NCBI GenBank assembly: GCA_019358975.1 | Contig: JAHHIL010000037.1 | Span: 1 to 54,031 of the forward strand | DNA length: 54,031 bases | Direction of reading: 5' to 3' | Source: Trichocoleus desertorum ATA4-8-CV12 | GTDB taxonomy: Bacteria; Cyanobacteriota; Cyanobacteriia; FACHB-46 | Shown here: positions 16,339 to 45,395 of the stretch, piece after piece | Layout: each line of letters opens with the position of its first letter | Numbering within the stretch: position 1 is the first letter of the stretch | Notes under the pieces: model-generated | Seen by the model: the letters and a program-made list of their open reading frames with translations, nothing else | Told to the model about the DNA's origin: nothing | Databases searched by the model: none | Position numbers and translations under genes: made by a program

Positions 16339-17286
16339 TTAGCCTAGGGCTTCAGCACCACCTACCACTTCTAGAATTTCTTGAGTGATGGCGGCCTGAC
16401 GCGCTTTGTTATAGGACAAAGTCAAGCCACTAATCAGCTCACTGGCGTTCTCACTGGCGTTGTTCATGGCGGTCATTCGAGCTGCCAGTTCACTCGCAGC
16501 CGATTCTTGCAAGGCTCGCAGTAACTGATTGTTTAGGTAGAGAGGCAAGAGGGCATCTAGAATTTGCACTGGATCTTGCTCGAAGATCATGTCGCGAGGT
16601 AGCACTCTGGCTTCAGAACTAACCTTGGAGCGTTCGACTTGGAACTGCCCACCGCGAGTGGTTAGCCGGAAGATTTCGTCATCAGGTGTTTCTAATCCCT
16701 GAGGATCGAGAGGCAACAGCGTCTGAATCACAGGCCGAGAGCTGATCAAGGACACAAAGCGGGTGTAAACCAGCTCGATGCGATCGACACTTTCTGACAA
16801 AAATAGTGACAGGATTTCGTCTGCAATTTCGGAGGCTTCTTGAGCCGTCGGCACTTGCTCTAAACCTGTATAGTTAGCACTGATCGGTTGATCCCGACGC
16901 TGAAAGTACTGGAAGGATTTGCGGCCCACCATGATGAACTTGTAATCCAAGCCTTCTGCTTTCAGCTCTTTGGCCCGATTTTCAGCCCGCCGGATGACGT
17001 TGGAGTTATAGGCACCGCAGAGGCCGCGATCGCCAGAAATCACTAGCAGACCAACAGTACGAACTTCCCGCTTCCTCAGCAAAGGCAGGTCTACATCCTC
17101 AAACCGCAAGCGGGTTTGGAGTCCATAGAGTACCTGTGCTAGACGATCAGCAAAAGGGCGGGTTGCAATCACTTGCTCTTGAGCCCGACGCACTTTGGCC
17201 GCAGCCACAAGGCGCATTGCTTCAGTAATTTTTTTGGTATTCTTGACCGACTGGATGCGATCGCGAATGATTTTGAGATTTGCCAT
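16339..17286 (-). CDS. atpG: ATP synthase F1 gamma subunit
   Basis: Gamma is the rotating central shaft that couples proton flow in Fo to catalysis in alpha3beta3. The 315-residue protein (called atpC in many cyanobacterial papers) has the N-terminal helix [24 protein letters not shown] and the conserved [18 protein letters not shown] (about residues 84-101). The C-terminal helix reads [15 protein letters not shown]. The length fits the cyanobacterial form, which has a mid-protein insertion absent in enterobacteria. It is the last gene of the operon, 92 bases after atpA, with two heptamer arrays in the spacer. Confidence 0.97.
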
Positions 17287-17302
17287 AGTTGTTTCCCTCT
17301 AG

Positions 17303-17372
17303 TAGCGACCAGCGATTAGCTATTAACAATTGGACTTGAAGACTCAGCGTTAACAGCTAACCGCTAATGGCT
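17303..17372. repeat. Two heptanucleotide arrays in the atpA-atpG spacer
   Basis: On the plus strand, 17303-17330 reads TAGCGAC, CAGCGAT, TAGCTAT, TAACAAT. The segment 17345-17372 reads CAGCGTT, AACAGCT, AACCGCT, AATGGCT. Both are four-unit degenerate tandem heptamers. Together they fill most of the 92-base gap between the two genes. Confidence 0.65.
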
Positions 17373-17378
17373 CATCTC

Positions 17379-18908
<1,530 letters not shown>

Positions 18909-18915
18909 TTACTAA

Positions 18916-18936
18916 GGATGAGGGATGAAGGATAAG
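18916..18936. repeat. Three heptamers in the atpH-atpA spacer
   Basis: GGATGAG, GGATGAA and GGATAAG run head to tail in the 53-base gap between atpH and atpA. They share the GGATGAA core with the arrays at 0.5 and 13.1 kb. Confidence 0.6.
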
Positions 18937-18949
18937 TGGTCGTTTGAGC

Positions 18950-19507
18950 CTAAGCGGCACTACTCAAACGCAGAGAGATACGTCTTAGTTGACCTCGGAT
19001 ACTTGCATCAACAACTTGTGAACCCACCTTGATGATGACGCCACCAATGAGGTCTGGATCAATTTTGGTTGCAAGATCTACTTGGCGAGCGTTGGTCATT
19101 GCTGTCACTTTCTCTCGGACAGCCCGCTGCTGCTCTTCATTGAGTTCTACAGTAGAAATCACTTCAGCCAGAACGGTTTGGTTTTGCTTGCGCAACAACG
19201 CCTGGTACTGCTTACAAATGCCCTCAATGAATAGAATGCGGCCTCGATCCACCAATAGGCTCAAGAAGTTGCGGGTGTAGGGATGCAATTGCTCGCCAGT
19301 AACCTGCTGTAGCACTGACTTTTTTACGTCAGCTTTGGTTAGAGGATTCGCTAGAAAATTACGCAAATCTTCTGAGCTGTTCAGTAGATCTAGTAAAGCG
19401 CTAACATCCTCACCCACGCGATCCACAATGTTGTTGGATTGGGCAACTGACATTAGAGCCTGAGCATAGGGCTCAACGATTTGACCCACTACAATGCTGT
19501 CTCTCAT
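18950..19507 (-). CDS. atpH: ATP synthase delta subunit (OSCP-like)
   Basis: Delta joins the peripheral b/b' stalk to the top of the alpha3beta3 ring. The 185-residue protein (atpD in older cyanobacterial naming) has an N-terminal helical domain (VEPYAQALMSVAQSN) and a C-terminal domain ending IGGVIIKVGSQVVDASIRGQL, the family signature. Its ATG overlaps the atpF stop by four bases, indicating translational coupling. Confidence 0.97.
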   Translation of the reverse strand: MRDSIVVGQIVEPYAQALMSVAQSNNIVDRVGEDVSALLDLLNSSEDLRNFLANPLTKADVKKSVLQQVTGEQLHPYTRNFLSLLVDRGRILFIEGICKQYQALLRKQNQTVLAEVISTVELNEEQQRAVREKVTAMTNARQVDLATKIDPDLIGGVIIKVGSQVVDASIRGQLRRISLRLSSAA

Positions 19508-20067
19508 GAGTTGCCTCCTAACAGCGTAATGCTGCGATCAATCAACTGTTGTTGGGCACCGTCGTTCAAGTAGTTACCAATCTGAGATTCAACCCGCTGC
19601 ACCGCTAGAGCTGCAACACGTTGACGCAGTTCTGCGATCGCCCGTTCTTGCTCAGTATTAGTTTCTTGAGCGGCAGTTGCCTTCATCCGCTCCACGTCTT
19701 TTGCTGCCTGAGCCAGAATTTCTTCCTTAGCAGTTTGAGCATTGGTTCCCGCATCAGCCCGAATGCGTTCTGCTTCAGCTTGCGCTTGAGCTAGTTTTTG
19801 CTGTTGTCCTGCTAGAGCGGCGGCAGCCTCGCGCTGACGTTTCTCCGCATCATGAATCGCTGTTTCAATTGCCGAGCGACGCTCTGTCAGGATACCGCCC
19901 AAGAAATTTCGCCCGAAATAGAACAGCACAAAAATAATGATGGCGAGGTTGATTAGGTTGGTTTCTAAAATATCAAAATTTAAACCAAACCTACCTTCCT
20001 CAGCGGCTTCTGCCAACTCGGAGGCAGCTGCACTACCTGCCGTTGCTAGTAATAAAAAAGTCCCCAT
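19504..20067 (-). CDS. atpF: ATP synthase Fo subunit b
   Basis: Subunit b is one of the two different peripheral-stalk subunits in photosynthetic ATP synthases. The start is placed at the ATG giving MGTFLLLATAG, which matches the usual N-terminus and follows GGATGAG; an ATG nine bases upstream is possible. The 187-residue protein has one membrane helix (about residues 38-55, LINLAIIIFVLFYFG), then a long charged, Ala/Gln-rich coiled coil reaching delta. It overlaps atpH by four bases. Confidence 0.94.
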   Translation of the reverse strand: MGTFLLLATAGSAAASELAEAAEEGRFGLNFDILETNLINLAIIIFVLFYFGRNFLGGILTERRSAIETAIHDAEKRQREAAAALAGQQQKLAQAQAEAERIRADAGTNAQTAKEEILAQAAKDVERMKATAAQETNTEQERAIAELRQRVAALAVQRVESQIGNYLNDGAQQQLIDRSITLLGGNS

Positions 20068-20183
20068 GATACTCATCCATAACTGCGCTGCTCATGCCAA
20101 AGCCTGGTCGCTAACCAGAGCTACAAACCACGACTGAAGCTGCCGCGATTCTCCCATTCCATCTCCCAACGCTTGAGCTAGAT

Positions 20184-20666
20184 CTACTTAACCAACTGAG
20201 GGCCGAGTAGTTTTTCTAAAATCTGGCGGCTGAGAGCATCAACCTGCTGCTCCAACGATTGCATCGCTACTTGCTTTTGCTGATCTAGCTCTTTCTGAGC
20301 TTGTTCTCGTTGAGCTTGGGCTTCTTGTTGTGCTGCTGCGATCTTCTGAGCTGCAATTTTCTGAGCATCGGCTTGAGCCTCAGCAATAATCGCTTGAGCC
20401 TTCCGGCGAGCTTCCCCTAGCTCTTGCTCATACTGCTTGGCGAGGTGCTCCGCTTTAGCCAAGCGTTCTTTGGCTTCCGCTTGGTTGGTGCGAATGTACT
20501 CGTTCCGACTATCGATCGCGTTACTCAGAGGCTTGTAAAAAATCGCGTTTAAGACGGCTGCTAGAACCAGAAACTGCAACGCCATCAATGGCAGCGTGGC
20601 ATCGAGATCGAATAACCCGCCCTGTTTAGTAGTTTCCGCAGCTAGTAAAATTGTCCAATGCATCAT
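20184..20666 (-). CDS. atpF2: ATP synthase Fo subunit b'
   Basis: This is the second stalk subunit (also called atpG in cyanobacteria), a duplicate of b found in photosynthetic organisms. The start is set at ATG 20666 ([12 protein letters not shown]), the family N-terminus, not the upstream start that would add [11 protein letters not shown]. The 160-residue protein has one membrane helix ([19 protein letters not shown]) and an Ala/Gln/Glu-rich coiled coil. A gap of 116 bases separates it from atpF. Confidence 0.95.
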
Positions 20667-20785
20667 AATTAGGTGTTTCCCGTTGCCAAGCAGGGTCAAG
20701 CTTGAATTGGGCTAGAACTAGAAAACAGTCGGGTGTAGAGATGCGATCGCTGACCACATCTCTACGGAGTCAGTAACCAAAAGCC

Positions 20786-21073
<288 letters not shown>

Positions 21074-21200
21074 TTAACTAGCAGATACGTGATTTTCACG
21101 CTGCCCTAAATCACCGATCGCAACTACTTAAACCAAGCAATTTCTGCGATAGTACCGGGCTATAGATAGGCGTAGCTAGGCTACGTCTCAACTGAGGGAT

Positions 21201-21968
21201 TTAAGCGTGTCCCCCATGCTCTTCACCACCATGCCCATGCTCTTCCACAGCTTCACCAATGTAAGCGGCGGCTAGGGTTGCAAAGATCAACGCCTGAATC
21301 GCACTGGTAAACAAACCCAGCACCATCACTGGCAACGGCACGAACAGAGGAACTAAGAGTACGAGAACTCCTACAACTAGTTCATCAGCCAGAATGTTGC
21401 CAAAGAGACGGAAGCTTAGGGAGAGCGGCCTGGTGAAATCTTCCAAAATCTTGAAAGGCAACATGATGGGTACTGGCTCAACATAGTGAGCAAAGTAACC
21501 CAAGCCCTTCTTGCTTAGCCCTGCGTAGAAATACGCCAAGGAGGTCAGCAAGGCAAATGCCACTGTGGTGTTGATGTCAGCAGTCGGTGCGCCTAGCTCA
21601 CCCTCTGATAGCTTAATCAGTTTCCAAGGAACAAGTGCACCCGACCAGTTTGACAGGAAGATAAAGAGAAATAATGTGCCAACAAACGGCACCCAGCGGC
21701 GATATTCTTTCTCGCCAATCTGAGTCTTAGCAATGTCGCGAATATATTCCAAAGCGTATTCCATCAGGTTTTGCAGCCCTGACGGCACTCTTTGGACATT
21801 ACGGCTAGCTGCCAAGGAAACCAGAACGAGAAGTCCAATCACAAACCAGGAGGTAATAAATACCTGCCCGTGCAACTTGAGGTTGCCGAGGTGCCAGTAA
21901 AGATGTCGTCCTACTTCCAACTCAGCTAGGCGGAAGGAGTTAAAGGCATCAAAATACAGCATGTCCAT
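21201..21968 (-). CDS. atpB: ATP synthase Fo subunit a
   Basis: Subunit a forms the proton half-channels next to the c-ring. The 255-residue protein has five or six membrane helices. The essential arginine is in [19 protein letters not shown] (about residue 175). The C-terminal helix contains [19 protein letters not shown], followed by a His/Gly-rich tail. It is called atpI in chloroplast naming. It follows atp1 and precedes atpE. Confidence 0.97.
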
Positions 21969-23985: not shown

Positions 23986-27872
<3,887 letters not shown>

Positions 27873-28293: not shown

Positions 28294-28779
28294 ATGAGTA
28301 TTGTCACGAAATCCATCGTGAATGCTGATGCTGAAGCTCGCTACCTCAGCCCTGGTGAACTAGATCGGATCAAGAGCTTTGTGACCTCTGGTGAGCGTCG
28401 TCTTCGCATTGCTCAAGTTTTGACTGATTCTCGTGAGCGCATCGTTAAGCAAGCTGGCGACCAACTGTTCCAAAAGCGCCCTGATGTTGTTTCTCCTGGT
28501 GGAAACGCTTACGGTGAAGAGCTAACTGCTACTTGCCTGCGTGACCTCGACTACTACCTCCGTCTAGTGACCTACGGAATCGTTTCTGGCGATGTGACCC
28601 CCATCGAAGAAATCGGTATCGTTGGTGTTCGTGAGATGTACAAGTCTCTGGGTACTCCCGTTGATGGCGTTGCTGAAGGTATCCGCGGCCTGAAGAACGT
28701 TGCTACTTCTCTGTTGTCTGGTGAAGACGCTGCTGAAGCTGGCTCCTACTTCGACTACGTGATCGGTGCAATGCAGTAA
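28294..28779 (+). CDS. apcA: Allophycocyanin alpha subunit
   Basis: ApcA pairs with ApcB in the trimeric discs of the phycobilisome core and carries one phycocyanobilin on cysteine 81 ([15 protein letters not shown]). The 161-residue globin-like phycobiliprotein matches the standard length throughout, with [10 protein letters not shown] before the bilin site. A strong GGAGGA ribosome site precedes the ATG. apcB follows after 67 bases. Confidence 0.99.
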
Positions 28780-28846: not shown

Positions 28847-29332
28847 ATGCAAGACGCAATTACTGCTGTTATTAACTCTTCTGACGTTCAAGGTAAGTAC
28901 CTAGACACCTCTTCTTTGGAGAAGCTCAAGGGCTACTTCCAAAGCGGTGAACTGCGCGTTCGTGCAGCTACCACCATCAGCGCTAACGCAGCTGCGATCG
29001 TGAAGGAAGCTGTGGCTAAGTCTTTGTTGTACTCTGATATCACCCGTCCCGGTGGTAACATGTACACCACTCGTCGCTATGCTGCTTGCATCCGCGACCT
29101 CGACTACTACCTACGCTATGCTACCTACGCTATGCTAGCTGGCGATCCTTCCATCCTCGATGAGCGCGTGCTCAACGGTTTGAAAGAAACCTACAACTCC
29201 TTGGGTGTACCCATCGCTGCTACTGTACAAGCTATTCAAGCAATCAAAGAAGTGACTGCTAGCCTAGTTGGTGCAGATGCTGGTAAGGAAATGGGTGTTT
29301 ACCTCGACTACATCTCCTCTGGCTTGAGCTAA
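28847..29332 (+). CDS. apcB: Allophycocyanin beta subunit
   Basis: This 161-residue beta subunit has the bilin cysteine at residue 81 ([15 protein letters not shown]). Asparagine 71 in RPGGNMYTT is equivalent to the methylated Asn72 of beta phycobiliproteins. It forms the alpha-beta monomer with ApcA. Codon use is strongly biased toward C-ending codons, as expected for a very highly expressed gene. Confidence 0.99.
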
Positions 29333-37794: not shown

Positions 37795-39510
37795 CTAAAG
37801 CACGATGGCGCGATCGCGACCTTGACGCTTCGCTTCATATAGAGCTTGATCCGCTCGTTGCACCGTATCCCAGGCATCTTGATCACCGTTTGGATCTTGC
37901 TGAGCCACCCCAAAACTAGCGGTAATTTCTAAAGGGCCAATCGTGGTTTCAAAAGCCGTCGAGCGGATGGCTAATCTTAAGCGTTCTGCAACCTCAAACG
38001 CTTTATCTAGCGTCACATCCATTAAAGCAATGACAAACTCCTCGCCACCATAGCGATAAGCCGAGGTGCCAAACCGCAGCTGTTTTTGCAGTCGTTGAGC
38101 CAAGCTGTATAGCACTTCATCTCCCACGAGGTGACCATAGGAGTCGTTGATTAGCTTGAAGTAGTCAATATCGCAGACGATCACGCTGAAGGGCGGCTGT
38201 AAGTTCCACTGGGCAGGAGCACTGAGTTGAGCCAGTTCTCGCTCTAGCGATCGCCGATTTAGCAGTTGTGTCAATTCATCATGGATGACTTCTAGCTGTA
38301 AGGAATTGTTTTGCAAGCGCAGGGTTTCTTGCTTGAACCAAAGACTTTGATAGTGCTGAGCATTGGTTAGAGCTACTGCGGCCTGATCTGCAACCTGCCG
38401 AATCGTCTGGAGTTCATCTAATCCATAAACTCGTTCTTTTTGGTAAGACAACAGCAGCACCGCGCCAAAGAACTCATCCTGCACAAATAGGGGCACAATG
38501 AGAGCCGCAAGCGCCTGAATTTCTTGCAGCCAACTTAATAAGGAGTCGGCTTCGGGCTGGCTGAGTTCTAGTTCTAAATATGAAGCCGCACCCTGAAGAA
38601 ACATCTCAACGGTGTCCTGCCATACATCACGGGCAATATAGCGCTTCTCTAGAGCTTGCAAGCAGCGATCGGGATGGTCCCAACTGGCCAGAATATGGAC
38701 TGGATCGCCCCGTAGATCTACAAGTACACAGCGATCGCTGTTTAGTCCTTGCCCCAGTTCTGCCACAATGCACTCAACGATTTCGTTGGGGTTGAGGCTA
38801 GAGTTGAGCAACCGGACAATGCGACCAACCAGAGCCGCTTGTTGTCGCGATTGTTCTAGGCGTTCTCGCCAGTGCAAAGCATGTAGGGCTAAGACCACTT
38901 GGCTACAAACAATTTCTAGGGCTTCAACTTCTTCTACGCTCCAAGTTGCAGTGGGTGCGCTGATAGGTTGAACAGCAGGTGCTTTGGGATTGAGGTAAGA
39001 GCGTAGAAACGGCTTACGCTTTGTCTCTACAGTGGCAGGTAAATGAGTAGTCGCTTGCGGTAGGTAGCGTTGTAATTGCAGCACAAACCGGAGGCGATCG
39101 CCATTCCAGGCAGGCACAATTAATCTTTCTCCCAACACTCTAGCTGTGTGCGAGAGGTGGTGTTGCTCTAACAACCATTGAGGTGACTTTTCTAAATGGC
39201 AGATCTGAACTTTGGGTTCCCGTGCGATCGAGGCGTTTAAGTTGACGACCGAAGCCCTAGTGGTCACTGGAACTAAACTAAGCTCCTGCTGCAAGTTGTG
39301 TAAAGCGCGCCCCGTACCATACACTTGAATGCCGTCAGCAGTTCCAGGGTCAAACCCCGTCCAGAGTAAGCACTCGACTTGATGCTCGGCGGCGATCGCT
39401 TCCACCACTTGTCGTAGCAGGGAGTCTGCTGAGTCGAGATTAATCACTGCTGTTTCTACCAGAGGATAGATGTATTTCCAGCTAGGCTGCCTGAATCTTG
39501 ATTGGAGCAT
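37795..39510 (-). CDS. Diguanylate cyclase with GAF domains
   Basis: This predicted cytosolic enzyme makes c-di-GMP from two GTP. The 571-residue protein has an N-terminal GAF-like region (about 20-210), a second GAF domain (about 230-385) and a GGDEF domain (about 405-571). The GGDEF domain has the active-site GGEEF at 488-492, the metal Asp in CDIDYFKLINDSYGH and LTQLLNRRSLE at its start. The RxxD inhibitory site expected just upstream reads RFGT, so product feedback may be lost. The GAF domains lack bilin-type Cys-His motifs. It is divergent from the photoreceptor-like kinase at 40.1 kb. Confidence 0.93.
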   Translation of the reverse strand: MLQSRFRQPSWKYIYPLVETAVINLDSADSLLRQVVEAIAAEHQVECLLWTGFDPGTADGIQVYGTGRALHNLQQELSLVPVTTRASVVNLNASIAREPKVQICHLEKSPQWLLEQHHLSHTARVLGERLIVPAWNGDRLRFVLQLQRYLPQATTHLPATVETKRKPFLRSYLNPKAPAVQPISAPTATWSVEEVEALEIVCSQVVLALHALHWRERLEQSRQQAALVGRIVRLLNSSLNPNEIVECIVAELGQGLNSDRCVLVDLRGDPVHILASWDHPDRCLQALEKRYIARDVWQDTVEMFLQGAASYLELELSQPEADSLLSWLQEIQALAALIVPLFVQDEFFGAVLLLSYQKERVYGLDELQTIRQVADQAAVALTNAQHYQSLWFKQETLRLQNNSLQLEVIHDELTQLLNRRSLERELAQLSAPAQWNLQPPFSVIVCDIDYFKLINDSYGHLVGDEVLYSLAQRLQKQLRFGTSAYRYGGEEFVIALMDVTLDKAFEVAERLRLAIRSTAFETTIGPLEITASFGVAQQDPNGDQDAWDTVQRADQALYEAKRQGRDRAIVL

Positions 39511-40117: not shown

Positions 40118-42199
40118 ATGTCCTCTGAAGTAAATAGCTCTCCTATTCACCCCCACTGTCAAGCTTTTTCTGTAGACACTGAGGCTCTAGATTCTTCAGA
40201 AGGAGAGCTATTAGAGTTGGAGCTGTACAAACGCCAGCGCCATCGCAACTTAACAACTCAACTCCAACAGCAAGTTAAGCTTTCTAATTTGGTTAATCAA
40301 ATTAGTAATGAAATTCGCAGCACGCTGGATTTAGAAGAAATTTTGAACTCTGCTTGCCGTTTGCTGGGTCAAGCGCTGAATTGTAGCCGAGCCAGTATTT
40401 TAGTTGTAGAGCCAGATGAAGAAGATTATTTAACGACTAAAGGCGAGTTTAACCAGGGAGATTACCCTTCCCAACTAGGGCTAAAGGTACCTATAGTTGG
40501 CAATCCTCACTTACAAACCTTGCTCGCTCAACAGGGAGCCTTGGCGCTTACTCGCTTTCTTGACTTTCCAGGCTTGAATGGGCCAACCAGGGAAGTGGCT
40601 CAGGGCTTAGAAATTCGCTCCATGATGGCTTTGGCAACTCGCTACCAAGGTAAAGTTAATGGCATTATTGGGCTGCACCAATGTGATACTGAGCGAGAAT
40701 GGACACCTTGGGAGATTGAACTGCTTGAAGGTGTGGGTAGTCAGTTAGCGATCGCGATCAATCAAGCTTGTCTTTATAGCGAAACTCGTCGTCAGGTGGA
40801 GCAAGAGTCTCTGCTGCGCTTAGTGACAAATCAAATTCGCAGCACCTTAGACTCTCAGACCATTTTGCAAACTGTGGTGCGGGAAGTGCGACACTTACTC
40901 GACACTGATCGGGTTGTCATCTACCAATTTCTGGAAGCTGACTGGCAAGGTGAAGTTGTAGTCGAGGAAGTTGTTAGCCCTTGGATGTCAGTGTTGGGGC
41001 AAATAAGCCAGGACAAATGCTTTTCATCTAAGTATGCTCAGCAATATCAAGGTGGCCGAGTTCGAGCGATTCATAACATTTTTGAGGCTGGCTTAGATCC
41101 TTGTCACGTTAACTTTCTGGAGCGTTTACAGGTTAAGGCCAACTTGATTGTCCCTATCATTATTCGCTCAAAGTTGTGGGGGCTGTTAATTGCTCAGGAG
41201 TGTAGCGCGCCTAGAGTTTGGCAGACTTGGGAAACTGAATTGTTGCAGCAATTAGCAGACCAAGTGGCGATCGCCATCCAACAAGCCGAATTGTACGCTC
41301 AGGTGCAAACAGCTGCGACTCAGTCTCAAGCTCAAGCTGAAACTCTCAAAGCCACCCTAGAAGAACTGCAAGCGACACAAATGCAGTTGCTTCAGAGCGA
41401 AAAGTTATCCAGCTTGGGGCAAATGGTGGCGGGGGTTGCTCACGAAATTAACAACGCCATTACTTTTATCCATGCCAATCTGCCTTATGCCCAACGGTAT
41501 GCCACGGCCCTGAATCAGGCGATCGCGCTTTACGAAGACTGTTGTCCTAATCCTCCAGAAGCGATCGCTGAGCTGATTGCTGCGCAAGAACTAGACTACG
41601 TGCGCGAGGACTTTCCTAAACTGATTAGTTCGATGGAAGAAGGCACCAAGCGGATTCGGGAAATTGTTTTAACCCTGCGTAACTTTTCCAGGCTAGATGA
41701 AGCAGAGCGCAAGGCCGTTGATTTACACGAAGGCATTGAGAGTACCTTGGTGATCTTGCAGCATCGGGTTAAAACAGGAGTCAAGCTTGATAAGCTCTAT
41801 GGTGAGCTACCCCTCGTAGAATGCCACGCTGGACAAATTAATCAAGTTTTTCTTAACCTGCTGACCAATGCCCTAGATGCGGCTGGGGAAAAAGCACATA
41901 TTAGGATTCGAACTTGGCATGTAGCGAACCAAGTCACGATCTCCATTCGAGATGATGGACCAGGCATTCCCTTAGAGTTACAAGAGCGCATCTTCGATCC
42001 TTTCTTCACAACCAAAGAAATCGGGAAAGGAACGGGTTTAGGCTTATCGATTTGTTATCAAATTGTGGTTAAAGGGCACAAAGGTCAACTGCAATGCTGT
42101 AGCCAGCCAGGGGCGGGTGCTGAGTTTCGAGTCGTTCTACCCGTGTCTAACAGCGCTAAAGCGACTAACTCTAATAATCAACAACTCAAAACTGGCTGA
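40118..42199 (+). CDS. Hybrid-GAF histidine kinase with a DXCF-type cyanobacteriochrome GAF domain
   Basis: This soluble sensor kinase has 693 residues. A short N-terminal coiled coil (about 36-62) is followed by GAF1 (about 70-220), GAF2 (about 235-393), a coiled-coil linker and a histidine kinase core: AHEINNAITF (phospho-His 442), INQVFLNLLTNALDAAGE, DDGPGIP and GTGLGLSI. GAF2 has the Cys-His bilin site LDPCH (Cys329-His330) and a DKCF motif (Asp299-Cys301-Phe302). The cysteines are 28 residues apart, the spacing of the two bilin cysteines in the DXCF photoreceptor TePixJ. This predicts a bilin-binding, blue/green-type photosensor. No receiver domain is fused and no response regulator is adjacent. 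GAF1 lacks these motifs. Confidence 0.92.
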   Translation: MSSEVNSSPIHPHCQAFSVDTEALDSSEGELLELELYKRQRHRNLTTQLQQQVKLSNLVNQISNEIRSTLDLEEILNSACRLLGQALNCSRASILVVEPDEEDYLTTKGEFNQGDYPSQLGLKVPIVGNPHLQTLLAQQGALALTRFLDFPGLNGPTREVAQGLEIRSMMALATRYQGKVNGIIGLHQCDTEREWTPWEIELLEGVGSQLAIAINQACLYSETRRQVEQESLLRLVTNQIRSTLDSQTILQTVVREVRHLLDTDRVVIYQFLEADWQGEVVVEEVVSPWMSVLGQISQDKCFSSKYAQQYQGGRVRAIHNIFEAGLDPCHVNFLERLQVKANLIVPIIIRSKLWGLLIAQECSAPRVWQTWETELLQQLADQVAIAIQQAELYAQVQTAATQSQAQAETLKATLEELQATQMQLLQSEKLSSLGQMVAGVAHEINNAITFIHANLPYAQRYATALNQAIALYEDCCPNPPEAIAELIAAQELDYVREDFPKLISSMEEGTKRIREIVLTLRNFSRLDEAERKAVDLHEGIESTLVILQHRVKTGVKLDKLYGELPLVECHAGQINQVFLNLLTNALDAAGEKAHIRIRTWHVANQVTISIRDDGPGIPLELQERIFDPFFTTKEIGKGTGLGLSICYQIVVKGHKGQLQCCSQPGAGAEFRVVLPVSNSAKATNSNNQQLKTG

Positions 42200-42737
42200 A
42201 GAAGAAGTTATCCAGTGTGAAAGGAGCGTCAGACTCAAACATGACGCTCGCAATTCCTGGTGTTTGTAATGCCAGAGGCTGTTGGGGGAGGGGCGCGAGT
42301 TCAGCCTGAGCGTTCGCCCATATATATTGGTAAGAGCCGATGCTAACTCGCTCTAAAACTACACCCTGACTATCAAGCCCGGTGAGAGTGACGGGCCGAG
42401 TGCCACTAACCAAGGCTTGCACGATCGCTACAGGGCGGCAAAATTGTGCCCGAATTCCAAGCTGGAATGTGGAGGGCATCAGCACTAAGCAGCCAGAACT
42501 GGGAAAAAAGATTGGATTAGAAGGGCAAATAGCGATCGCGCCGACAAACTGAATACCTAAGCTAGAATACTGATTTTCTAATCGTTCAAATTCAATGAGA
42601 TCTTCAAAATCAAGTTGAGTGGGTCCCAACCTAAGAGGTGTGACTTCAGCCGCAGTGGCGCGGACTAAATCGCGTCTGCTGGTAGGAGGTGCAAGGGGCT
42701 GAGAAAATTCAGGGTGCGACTTCAGGAAAGAAAGCAT
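42186..42737 (-). CDS. Hypothetical beta-sandwich-like protein
   Basis: The protein has 183 residues and its stop end overlaps the convergent kinase gene by 14 bases. It is predicted mostly beta. Notable segments are LDFEDLIEFERLENQYSSL, ICPSNPIFFPSSGCLVLM, VSGTRPVTLTGLDSQG and a C-terminal FESDAPFTLDNFFF. This pattern (phrases such as NPxFxPxSG, VSGxRPVTLT and APFTLDNF) resembles cyanobacterial proteins with carbohydrate-binding-like jelly-roll folds. No signal peptide is visible. The function is unknown. Confidence 0.75.
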   Translation of the reverse strand: MLSFLKSHPEFSQPLAPPTSRRDLVRATAAEVTPLRLGPTQLDFEDLIEFERLENQYSSLGIQFVGAIAICPSNPIFFPSSGCLVLMPSTFQLGIRAQFCRPVAIVQALVSGTRPVTLTGLDSQGVVLERVSIGSYQYIWANAQAELAPLPQQPLALQTPGIASVMFESDAPFTLDNFFFSQF

Positions 42738-43558: not shown

Positions 43559-44599
43559 ATGAGGCGCATGGATTTAAACCAACTAAACAGTGCTTTTACG
43601 CTGTTTCTGAGTTTGTTAGTTGAGGCATTCCCCTTCCTGATTTTGGGGGTGGTGTTCTCTGGCCTGTTGTTGTTCTTTGTGGATGAGCGCAAGCTGATCA
43701 AGCTCATGCCTAAGCATCCTTTGTTGGGAGCTTTTGCAGGGAGTTGCGTTGGGTTTTTGTTTCCCGTGTGCGAATGCGGCAATGTCCCGGTAGCTCGACG
43801 GCTGCTAATGCAGGGGGCTCCCGCTCCTGTGGCGATCGGATTTTTGCTGGCAGCTCCGACCATTAATCCCATTGTGTTTTGGTCAACCTGGGTGGCTTTT
43901 CGTGACCAACCCGAAATTGTGTTTCTGCGGGTGGGATTGTCTTTAGTCATCGCCACCATTATTGGCTGGGTCTTTAGTGCTCAAGCAGACTTGAGGCCAT
44001 TGCTACAACCTACAGTAGCCAGAGCGATACCAACTAGGAGCGAGGAGAGAGGAAGTAGGGGGCAGGCTGAAGTCTCGCCTTTACTACAATCTGGAACCTT
44101 TCTGCTAGGCCAAACGGGACAACCCCTGCGCATGGACACGACTGAACTTCAGGCATCAATGGTTGCTGCTGCCACTTTCAACAAACCTTTGCCCGATCGC
44201 TTGTATTTGCTACTGGAAAACACGGTGCAAGAACTGCGGGAATTGGGTGGTGTGCTCATTCTAGGGAGTGCGATCGCCGCTCTGATTCAAGCCTTTGTAC
44301 CCAGAGAACTGATTTTGGGTTTGGGCCAAGGTCCGATCACTTCGATTTTGGCGATGATGCTGCTGGCAGCGCTCGTGTCAATTTGCTCGACCGTCGATGC
44401 ATTTTTTGCTCTCTCGTTTGCCTCTGTCTTTACCAGTGGCTCTTTATTGGCTTTTCTGGTCTTTGGGCCCATGATTGACCTGAAAGGGGTCGGCTTAATG
44501 CTGTCCATTTTTAAGACCAGAGCAGTGATTTATCTCTTTGCTTTGGCAGCCCAGTTAACCTTTTTGTCTACCCTCTTCCTGAACCTACATGTCAGCTGA
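43559..44599 (+). CDS. DUF318/YraQ-type permease
   Basis: This 346-residue inner-membrane protein has eight or so helices in two halves separated by a soluble linker (about 145-215). The family motif FPVCECGNVPVARRLL (about 61-76), with a CEC pair that may touch metal or thiols, and APTINPIVFWSTW are present. Ribosome site GAGGAG lies just upstream. The linker residues 160-171 are encoded by a heptanucleotide array. The next gene, a TIGR03943 protein, overlaps by 11 bases; this pairing is a conserved two-component permease, linked in some bacteria to metal export or to zinc-responsive genes. The substrate is unknown here. Confidence 0.88.
   Translation: MRRMDLNQLNSAFTLFLSLLVEAFPFLILGVVFSGLLLFFVDERKLIKLMPKHPLLGAFAGSCVGFLFPVCECGNVPVARRLLMQGAPAPVAIGFLLAAPTINPIVFWSTWVAFRDQPEIVFLRVGLSLVIATIIGWVFSAQADLRPLLQPTVARAIPTRSEERGSRGQAEVSPLLQSGTFLLGQTGQPLRMDTTELQASMVAAATFNKPLPDRLYLLLENTVQELRELGGVLILGSAIAALIQAFVPRELILGLGQGPITSILAMMLLAALVSICSTVDAFFALSFASVFTSGSLLAFLVFGPMIDLKGVGLMLSIFKTRAVIYLFALAAQLTFLSTLFLNLHVS
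44037..44071. repeat. Heptanucleotide array inside the permease gene
   Basis: Five head-to-tail degenerate heptamers (GGAGCGA, GGAGAGA, GGAAGTA, GGGGGCA, GGCTGAA) encode about RSEERGSRGQAE in the cytoplasmic linker. The frame stays open, so this looks like a tolerated insertion similar to the one in thiL. Confidence 0.7.
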
Positions 44600-45395
44600 G
44601 TCTTCTTCTGCCCGCCGTCGCCGCAGAAGTGAGCGATGGGCTATTTCCTGGTTGCCCTGGTTGGATGTAATTGCCATTACCGCTTGGGGCGTTTTACTGC
44701 TGAAGTACTGGATTACTGGCAGGCTTAATCTGCTGATTCACCCTAACTACACTTGGCTCGCGATCGCAGGTGGGGTGAGTTTACTGTTAATTGGTGGCAG
44801 CAAAGCCCTGACGCTATTACCGCAGTTGTTTCCGCGTCGTAATGGGGCTGTTCCAGCCCAGAGTGTGCAGCATCTCTCGCTCTTTCCACCGGGATGGAGT
44901 AGTACCTTGCTGCTGGTGACTGCGATTTTGGGATTTCTGATCATCCCCCGCGCTTTCGTCAGTCAGACCGCACTGCAACGGGGGGTTACAGATACTCTCA
45001 CCATGACTAGGGCTCATCCCCAGGCCTTCCGGACTTCCATTGACTCAGCATCGCGATCGCTAATTGAGTGGGTGCGGACGCTCAATGTCTATCCCGAACC
45101 GGATGCTTACACGGGCCAAAAGGTCAAAGTTCAAGGCTTTGTCATTCATGCGCCGGATCTGCCAGAACAATATTTTCTGTTGTCCCGCTTTGTGATTACC
45201 TGCTGTGCTGCCGATGCTTATCCAGTCGGTTTGCCTGTCAAGTTGAAAGAAAGCCGCAAGGATTATCCACCGGATACGTGGCTAGAAATCGAAGGGCAGA
45301 TGATCACAGCGGAGCTAGCTGGAAAACGCCAACTAACGATCCAACCGAGATCGATTAAGCAAATCCCGGAACCTAAGAATCCCTACGATTACTAA
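44589..45395 (+). CDS. TIGR03943 family putative permease partner
   Basis: The protein has 268 residues. A basic N-terminus (RRRRRSERW) is followed by two or three membrane helices (WLDVIAITAWGVLLLKYW, YTWLAIAGGVSLLLIGG, SSTLLLVTAILGFLIIPRAF). A C-terminal soluble domain (about 150-268) contains KVKVQGFVIHAPDLPEQYF, RFVITCCAADAYPVG (Cys pair) and TWLEIEGQMI, an OB-like pattern. It overlaps the DUF318 permease by 11 bases and probably forms a complex with it. Confidence 0.88.
   Translation: MSAESSSARRRRRSERWAISWLPWLDVIAITAWGVLLLKYWITGRLNLLIHPNYTWLAIAGGVSLLLIGGSKALTLLPQLFPRRNGAVPAQSVQHLSLFPPGWSSTLLLVTAILGFLIIPRAFVSQTALQRGVTDTLTMTRAHPQAFRTSIDSASRSLIEWVRTLNVYPEPDAYTGQKVKVQGFVIHAPDLPEQYFLLSRFVITCCAADAYPVGLPVKLKESRKDYPPDTWLEIEGQMITAELAGKRQLTIQPRSIKQIPEPKNPYDY

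Follow-up and report, generated by a model that had tools for sequence, protein, structure and literature searches.

DXCF cyanobacteriochromes are defined (PMC11284453) by a canonical bilin cysteine together with a second cysteine located in an Asp-Xaa-Cys-Phe motif. The GAF domain of TePixJ (PDB 3vv4, 4fof, 4glq and 2m7u) is a blue/green member of this type, belongs to a protein annotated as a chemotaxis protein, and holds the B-ring propionate of its bilin through H498 and W499, as described in one portion of PMC6955287. The XRG red/green group, represented by AnPixJg2, NpR6012g4 and Slr1393g3, presents a WXDXXL motif whose Trp holds the A-ring of phycocyanobilin (PCB); a natural replacement of this Trp is accompanied, in one example, by the formation of phycoviolobilin (PVB) (PMC11284453). 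In red/green domains and in DXCF domains of the teal kind, a twisted photoproduct is trapped by two Phe sites (PMC5240096). The DXCIP group lacks the canonical cysteine and attaches the bilin through the second cysteine alone, as stated in a section of PMC5578081.

Domains with a single bilin cysteine are represented by the GAF of PPHK, a dual-sensor histidine kinase of Leptolyngbya JSC-1 (PDB 6oap), and by the NpR3784 group (miRFP670nano, PDB 6mgh), which present DQYF and DRYF, respectively, and no second cysteine.

Gene and domain organization of the kinase

The window, which is the whole stretch of 54,031 nucleotides analysed here, contains an ORF on the + strand that starts with an ATG at 40118, ends with a stop at 42199 and codes for 693 aa, while the opposite strand is interrupted by numerous stops. 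The gene and its features are the following:

40118..42199, + strand: GAF-GAF-histidine kinase gene, 693 aa (ORF, Pfam, motif residues)
40328..40762, + strand: GAF1, residues 71-215, without a bilin cysteine motif (Pfam, orthologs, model)
40853..41281, + strand: GAF2, residues 246-388, predicted cyanobacteriochrome-type bilin-binding domain (Pfam, homology, model)
41012..41023, + strand: DXCF motif Asp299-Lys300-Cys301-Phe302, with the second cysteine (sequence, homologs)
41102..41107, + strand: canonical bilin cysteine Cys329 and His330 (sequence, homologs)
41411..41701, + strand: dimerisation/phosphoacceptor helices, residues ~432-528, with His442 in AHEINN (conservation, model)
41834..42148, + strand: HATPase_c catalytic domain, residues 573-677 (Pfam)

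Pfam placed GAF_3 at residues 71-215, GAF with its best stretch at 246-387, and HATPase_c, as in sensor histidine kinases, at 573-677 (E 1.4e-27). The Pfam HisKA model gave no match up to E 0.001, although a phosphoacceptor-type stretch, AGVAH442-E-I-N-N, is present and its H442 and E443 are kept in 11/11 full-length orthologs. Pfam matched no response-regulator domain within the kinase, and no hydrophobic stretch was a candidate for a membrane helix, the best 19-residue mean (1.57) lying inside a GAF strand. The original prediction of a soluble GAF-GAF-HisKA-HATPase protein without fused receiver is therefore retained for its GAF and HATPase_c domains, its solubility and the absence of a receiver, but not for a Pfam HisKA domain, in whose place dimerisation helices with a phosphoacceptor His are found. 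The combination of HATPase_c and this His points to a sensor histidine kinase. An AlphaFold2 model of the whole protein gave the order GAF1, long helix, GAF2, long helix, dimerisation helices and catalytic domain; given its low global confidence (pTM 0.41), the relative placement of the domains was not used.

Of the 388 genomes searched in the class, 12, with the source genome among them, gave a match with E no higher than 1e-160, and the 13 sequences aligned from these 12 genomes all keep D299, C301, F302, C329 and H330. Among 11 orthologs, the invariant positions amount to 65/171 in GAF2, 26/176 in GAF1, 33/163 in the linker and dimerisation part and 31/120 in the HATPase, so that GAF2 is the most conserved domain of the kinase. 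A scan of named-genome contigs with the single protein as query returned no match; with the alignment of 13 GAF2s it returned 576 confirmed stretches, the best 80 of which were used and are all cyanobacterial. These best 80 include 20 near-full-length orthologs (L042-L059, L061, L063), with 52-67% identity and D-x-C-F plus C-H in 20/20, from Oscillatoria, Microcoleus, Tychonema, Planktothrix and Laspinema; this set overlaps that of the 12 genomes, at least L042 and L058 coming from genomes counted in both.

In GAF1, which is otherwise poorly conserved, Cys80, Cys89 and Cys189 are kept in 11/11 orthologs, and a redox role of these cysteines is possible.

GAF2 compared with solved bilin-binding domains

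The residues Asp299-Lys300-Cys301-Phe302 and Cys329-His330 occur in the translation as originally predicted, and the claimed distance of 28 between the two cysteines is equal to that in the TePixJ chain. GAF2 aligned to TePixJ (about 39% identity) with both motifs in register, at E 2e-34 to 2e-32. Chance occurrence of the motifs is excluded, since they fall at equivalent columns in an alignment whose statistics leave no doubt, and persist in homologs whose GAF2 identity drops to 60%.

The top matches of GAF2 in a library of solved structures, which was also queried with the profile of 13 GAF2s, were bilin-binding domains: PPHK (148.7 bits), miRFP670nano of the NpR3784 group (121.9) and TePixJ (116-122), followed by RcaE (chain 8k9o), NpR6012g4, AnPixJg2 and Slr1393g3. 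The AlphaFold2 model of GAF2 (pLDDT 86.9, pTM 0.85) was closest in fold to PPHK (Z 26.4), AnPixJg2 (25.4) and TePixJ (4glq, 23.3), all bilin-binding, and phytochromes ranked just below the cyanobacteriochromes. PPHK is thus the best match in both sequence and fold, and is likewise a bilin GAF joined to a kinase. It differs in having a Tyr at the Cys301 site, in its position in a different clade, and in its other input, which by its name is phosphorylation, the kinase studied here having GAF1 instead; PPHK presumably also carries a receiver domain.

When GAF2 is aligned with red/green and DXCF cyanobacteriochromes, the result supports the DXCF type, since Cys301 falls on the second cysteine of TePixJ, position 297 is Ser and not Trp, and Cys-His is kept. 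GAF2 is a cyanobacteriochrome-type GAF in which the canonical Cys-His is combined with a second cysteine in DXCF at the TePixJ position. It shares the fold and the canonical Cys-His with the XRG group but presents no WXDXXL motif (Ser297) and has Cys301, and it has this cysteine where PPHK and miRFP670nano, the latter with high GAF similarity, have Tyr. On sequence grounds, there is good support for calling the predicted product of 40118-42199 a DXCF cyanobacteriochrome histidine kinase, a further example of an already known protein type.

Lineage of GAF2 and conservation of the two cysteines

A larger tree of 116 rows included the window GAF2, its homologs, the 80 named loci (best of 576), GAFs of the source genome and ten solved references; 7 of the 20 source-genome GAFs other than the window copy stayed outside all trees. 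For a careful tree, 70 of the 116 rows were kept, after removal of six rows (long branches, one outgroup and one solved far-red reference) and of rows at least 80% identical to a kept one. The window GAF2 was included in a clade of 34 rows (support 99/95), and the solved cyanobacteriochromes in this tree, except RcaE, formed a second group (95/86), with RcaE below both. The clade persisted (SH-aLRT 96) when 21 GAFs from the TePixJ genome, a Slr1393-bearing genome and Nostoc punctiforme NIES-2108 were added, only one of which joined it, from a Nostoc kinase without the motif Asp. A kinase motif, HE-x-N, follows the GAF in 48/49 named clade rows, the remaining row ending at a contig edge. These trees give good support to the placement of GAF2 in a kinase-linked lineage that contains none of the solved cyanobacteriochromes compared. 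No characterised member of the lineage was found among the cyanobacteriochromes compared, which take in a minority of the published DXCF domains, those with solved structure, or in the literature searched, which covers part of the papers of the field.

A certain separation between the lineage and TePixJ is no longer claimed: TePixJ is a long branch that falls outside the clade in the best tree, though not significantly, and its constrained placement with the clade was not rejected by the AU test (p 0.351 in the careful tree; p 0.87 in the quick tree, where the constrained tree even outscored the free one). The position of PPHK as best match also suggested a regain of Cys301 within the single-cysteine NpR3784/PPHK group. 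Such a regain is not favoured, as PPHK and NpR3784 lie outside the lineage, even if constraining them to group with it was not rejected (AU p 0.156).

In the 64 clade rows of the larger tree, Cys301 and Cys362 are present in 64/64, His330 in 63, Phe302 in 62, Cys329 in 58 and Asp299 in 52. The 42 other non-reference rows show the reverse pattern, with Cys329 in 42/42 and Cys301 in 36. Counted on this larger tree, the quick one, the minimum number of changes within the clade is zero for Cys301 and at least two each for Cys329 and Asp299. The Cys301 count may be inflated, because clade rows were picked by similarity to sequences that all have this cysteine. The Cys301 codon is TGC in 31 rows and TGT in 33, a split which indicates that the residue is held while its codon drifts.

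Among the related kinases, L060, L073, L076, L077, L079 and L092 retain the Phe and the second Cys after loss of the canonical bilin cysteine, and L067, L070, L071, L075, L078, L084, L091, L093, L098, L112, L121 and L146 keep both cysteines but have lost the motif Asp. The former resemble the DXCIP group in keeping only the second cysteine; GAF2 itself has both cysteines, and DXCF rather than the DXCIP described in that part of PMC5578081.

With 6/64 rows lacking the canonical Cys and 12/64 lacking the Asp, part of the lineage may no longer sense light, or may do so differently. A tentative and rather unlikely extension is that these kinases represent a DXCF lineage coupled to kinases that branched off early and cannot do without the second cysteine, members holding or gating the bilin via the Cys301-type cysteine alone, the reverse of the other cyanobacteriochromes compared, in which it is the canonical cysteine that is fixed. 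If the lineage is as separate as it looks in the trees, clade members without Cys329 or Asp299 could show, as natural variants, which of the two cysteines is required.

Predicted photocycle, output and genomic neighbourhood

Position 297, Ser in GAF2, is Gly in 31/64 clade rows and Trp in XRG domains. At the sites which we take, partly by the NpR6012g4 numbering, to be those of the tuning Phe, four XRG-like references have Phe, the XRG domains named above at both sites; NpR3784 has Phe at the Leu337 site, while TePixJ and GAF2 have Val and Leu (Val280 and Leu337 in GAF2); neither site has Phe in any of the 64 clade rows. Since GAF2 has Val280 and Leu337 as in TePixJ and no tuning Phe, its sequence favours a green over a teal photoproduct. 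On the other hand, H498 and W499 of TePixJ correspond to Lys305 and Tyr306, so the propionate contact reported in that portion of PMC6955287 is not identical; Tyr occurs at the 306 site in 42/64 clade rows and 18/42 other rows. For chromophore supply, the source genome has one PcyA and one haem oxygenase family match over the cut-off.

The explanation that we favour overall, and judge fairly probable, is a soluble, light-switched sensor histidine kinase whose DXCF GAF2 would, as its sequence makes probable, alternate between a blue and a green state. By analogy with the family, GAF2 would bind PCB via Cys329, and in the dark Cys301 would form a second thioether to C10 of the bilin, giving a blue-absorbing state; GAF2 probably also converts the bilin to PVB. 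Light would turn the C15=C16 bond, Cys301 would be released and a green-absorbing photoproduct would form, if the colours are those of the family. The signal would be transmitted by the long helix after GAF2 (residues ~370-424) to the dimerisation helices, with kinase control of the kind known in the family, changing the phosphorylation of His442 and then of a response regulator encoded elsewhere. The gene, its motifs, homology, predicted fold and conservation, and the chromophore-synthesis genes are the established part of this explanation. In its favour we count the motifs and their spacing, the homology and fold shared with bilin-binding GAFs, the conserved cysteines, PcyA and haem oxygenase, the residues Ser297, Val280 and Leu337, and an ApcE-type linker gene in the window; Lys305/Tyr306, the higher score to single-Cys PPHK than to TePixJ, the losses of Cys329 and Asp in the lineage and the lack of a receiver on the contig count against it.

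As a possible but doubtful alternative, GAF2 would bind PCB and be photoactive without being a classical blue/green DXCF domain: PCB could be kept (blue/orange), the dark state could be green, or Cys301 could be unlinked to C10. Two-Cys domains with other photocycles are described in parts of PMC5240096 and PMC11284453, and the separation of the GAF2 lineage from TePixJ in the best trees and the different propionate partners would agree with such behaviour. The presence of Cys301 in every lineage row and the match to TePixJ at both tuning-Phe sites speak against it, as does position 297, where GAF2 lacks the Trp by which XRG domains stabilise the A-ring of PCB (PMC11284453).

Regarding the output of the favoured blue/green kinase, none of the 140 receiver matches in the genome is on its contig, which makes it an orphan kinase. 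A conserved adjacent response regulator was not found among the clusters at 28 ortholog loci, where gene order and first residues were inspected and not all clusters were named. The gene order of the window was read from the ORF list and set beside that of two loci of the same genus, L124 and L125; it includes:

16339-21968, - strand: ATP synthase gene cluster (gamma and alpha by Pfam, other ORFs by position only)
24477-27872, + strand: ApcE-type core linker of the phycobilisome, containing four linker repeats (Pfam)
37795..39510, - strand: GAF-GGDEF diguanylate cyclase, 571 aa, divergent neighbour of the kinase (Pfam, gene order)
42186-42737, - strand: 183-aa ORF, tail to tail with the kinase, overlapping its 3' end by 14 bases (ORF list)
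43559-45395, + strand: permease pair, made up of a TIGR03943 permease subunit and a 346-aa protein that resembles SO_0444/SaoE efflux transporters below the threshold

The divergent cyclase is a possible functional partner. The two genes are separated by 607 bp, in which no repeats and no block clearly kept between genera were seen. Compatible with any of the other readings, but quite unlikely, is a single pathway of light-controlled c-di-GMP synthesis formed by this pair. The pair is kept, besides the window, in 5/10 fetched ortholog genomes with two family codes, but it is absent from G020, G122, G276, G318, G368 and the Microcoleus/Planktothrix-type named loci; moreover, the cyclase consists of GAF and GGDEF only, without a receiver domain, and old shared gene order explains the pair equally well.

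It is very unlikely that GAF2, with its fold and cysteines intact, goes without bilin in the cell and uses the cysteines for redox or metal sensing: Cys301 and Cys362 are better kept than Cys329 in the lineage and GAF1 likewise has its three conserved cysteines, but Cys329-His330 occurs in all close orthologs, His330 is nearly invariant in the lineage, the nearest solved relatives bind bilin, and the 80 named loci (best of 576) are exclusively cyanobacterial.

The DXCF kinase would add to the family a clean, expressible two-cysteine kinase photoreceptor. If its lineage is truly separate, the spectra of its members would tell whether cyanobacteriochromes outside the RcaE type started from a blue/green photocycle with two cysteines. 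Eight further GAFs with D-x-C-F and the canonical Cys (L022-L029; six with Cys-His and two with Cys-Tyr) are found in the source genome, so domains of this kind are ordinary in the organism.

After the ApcE-type gene, the 161-aa ORFs at 28294-28779 and 28847-29332 may encode allophycocyanin subunits, by position. The 183-aa ORF had no match in Pfam or NCBIfam, and a related ORF occupies the same position in the two same-genus loci.
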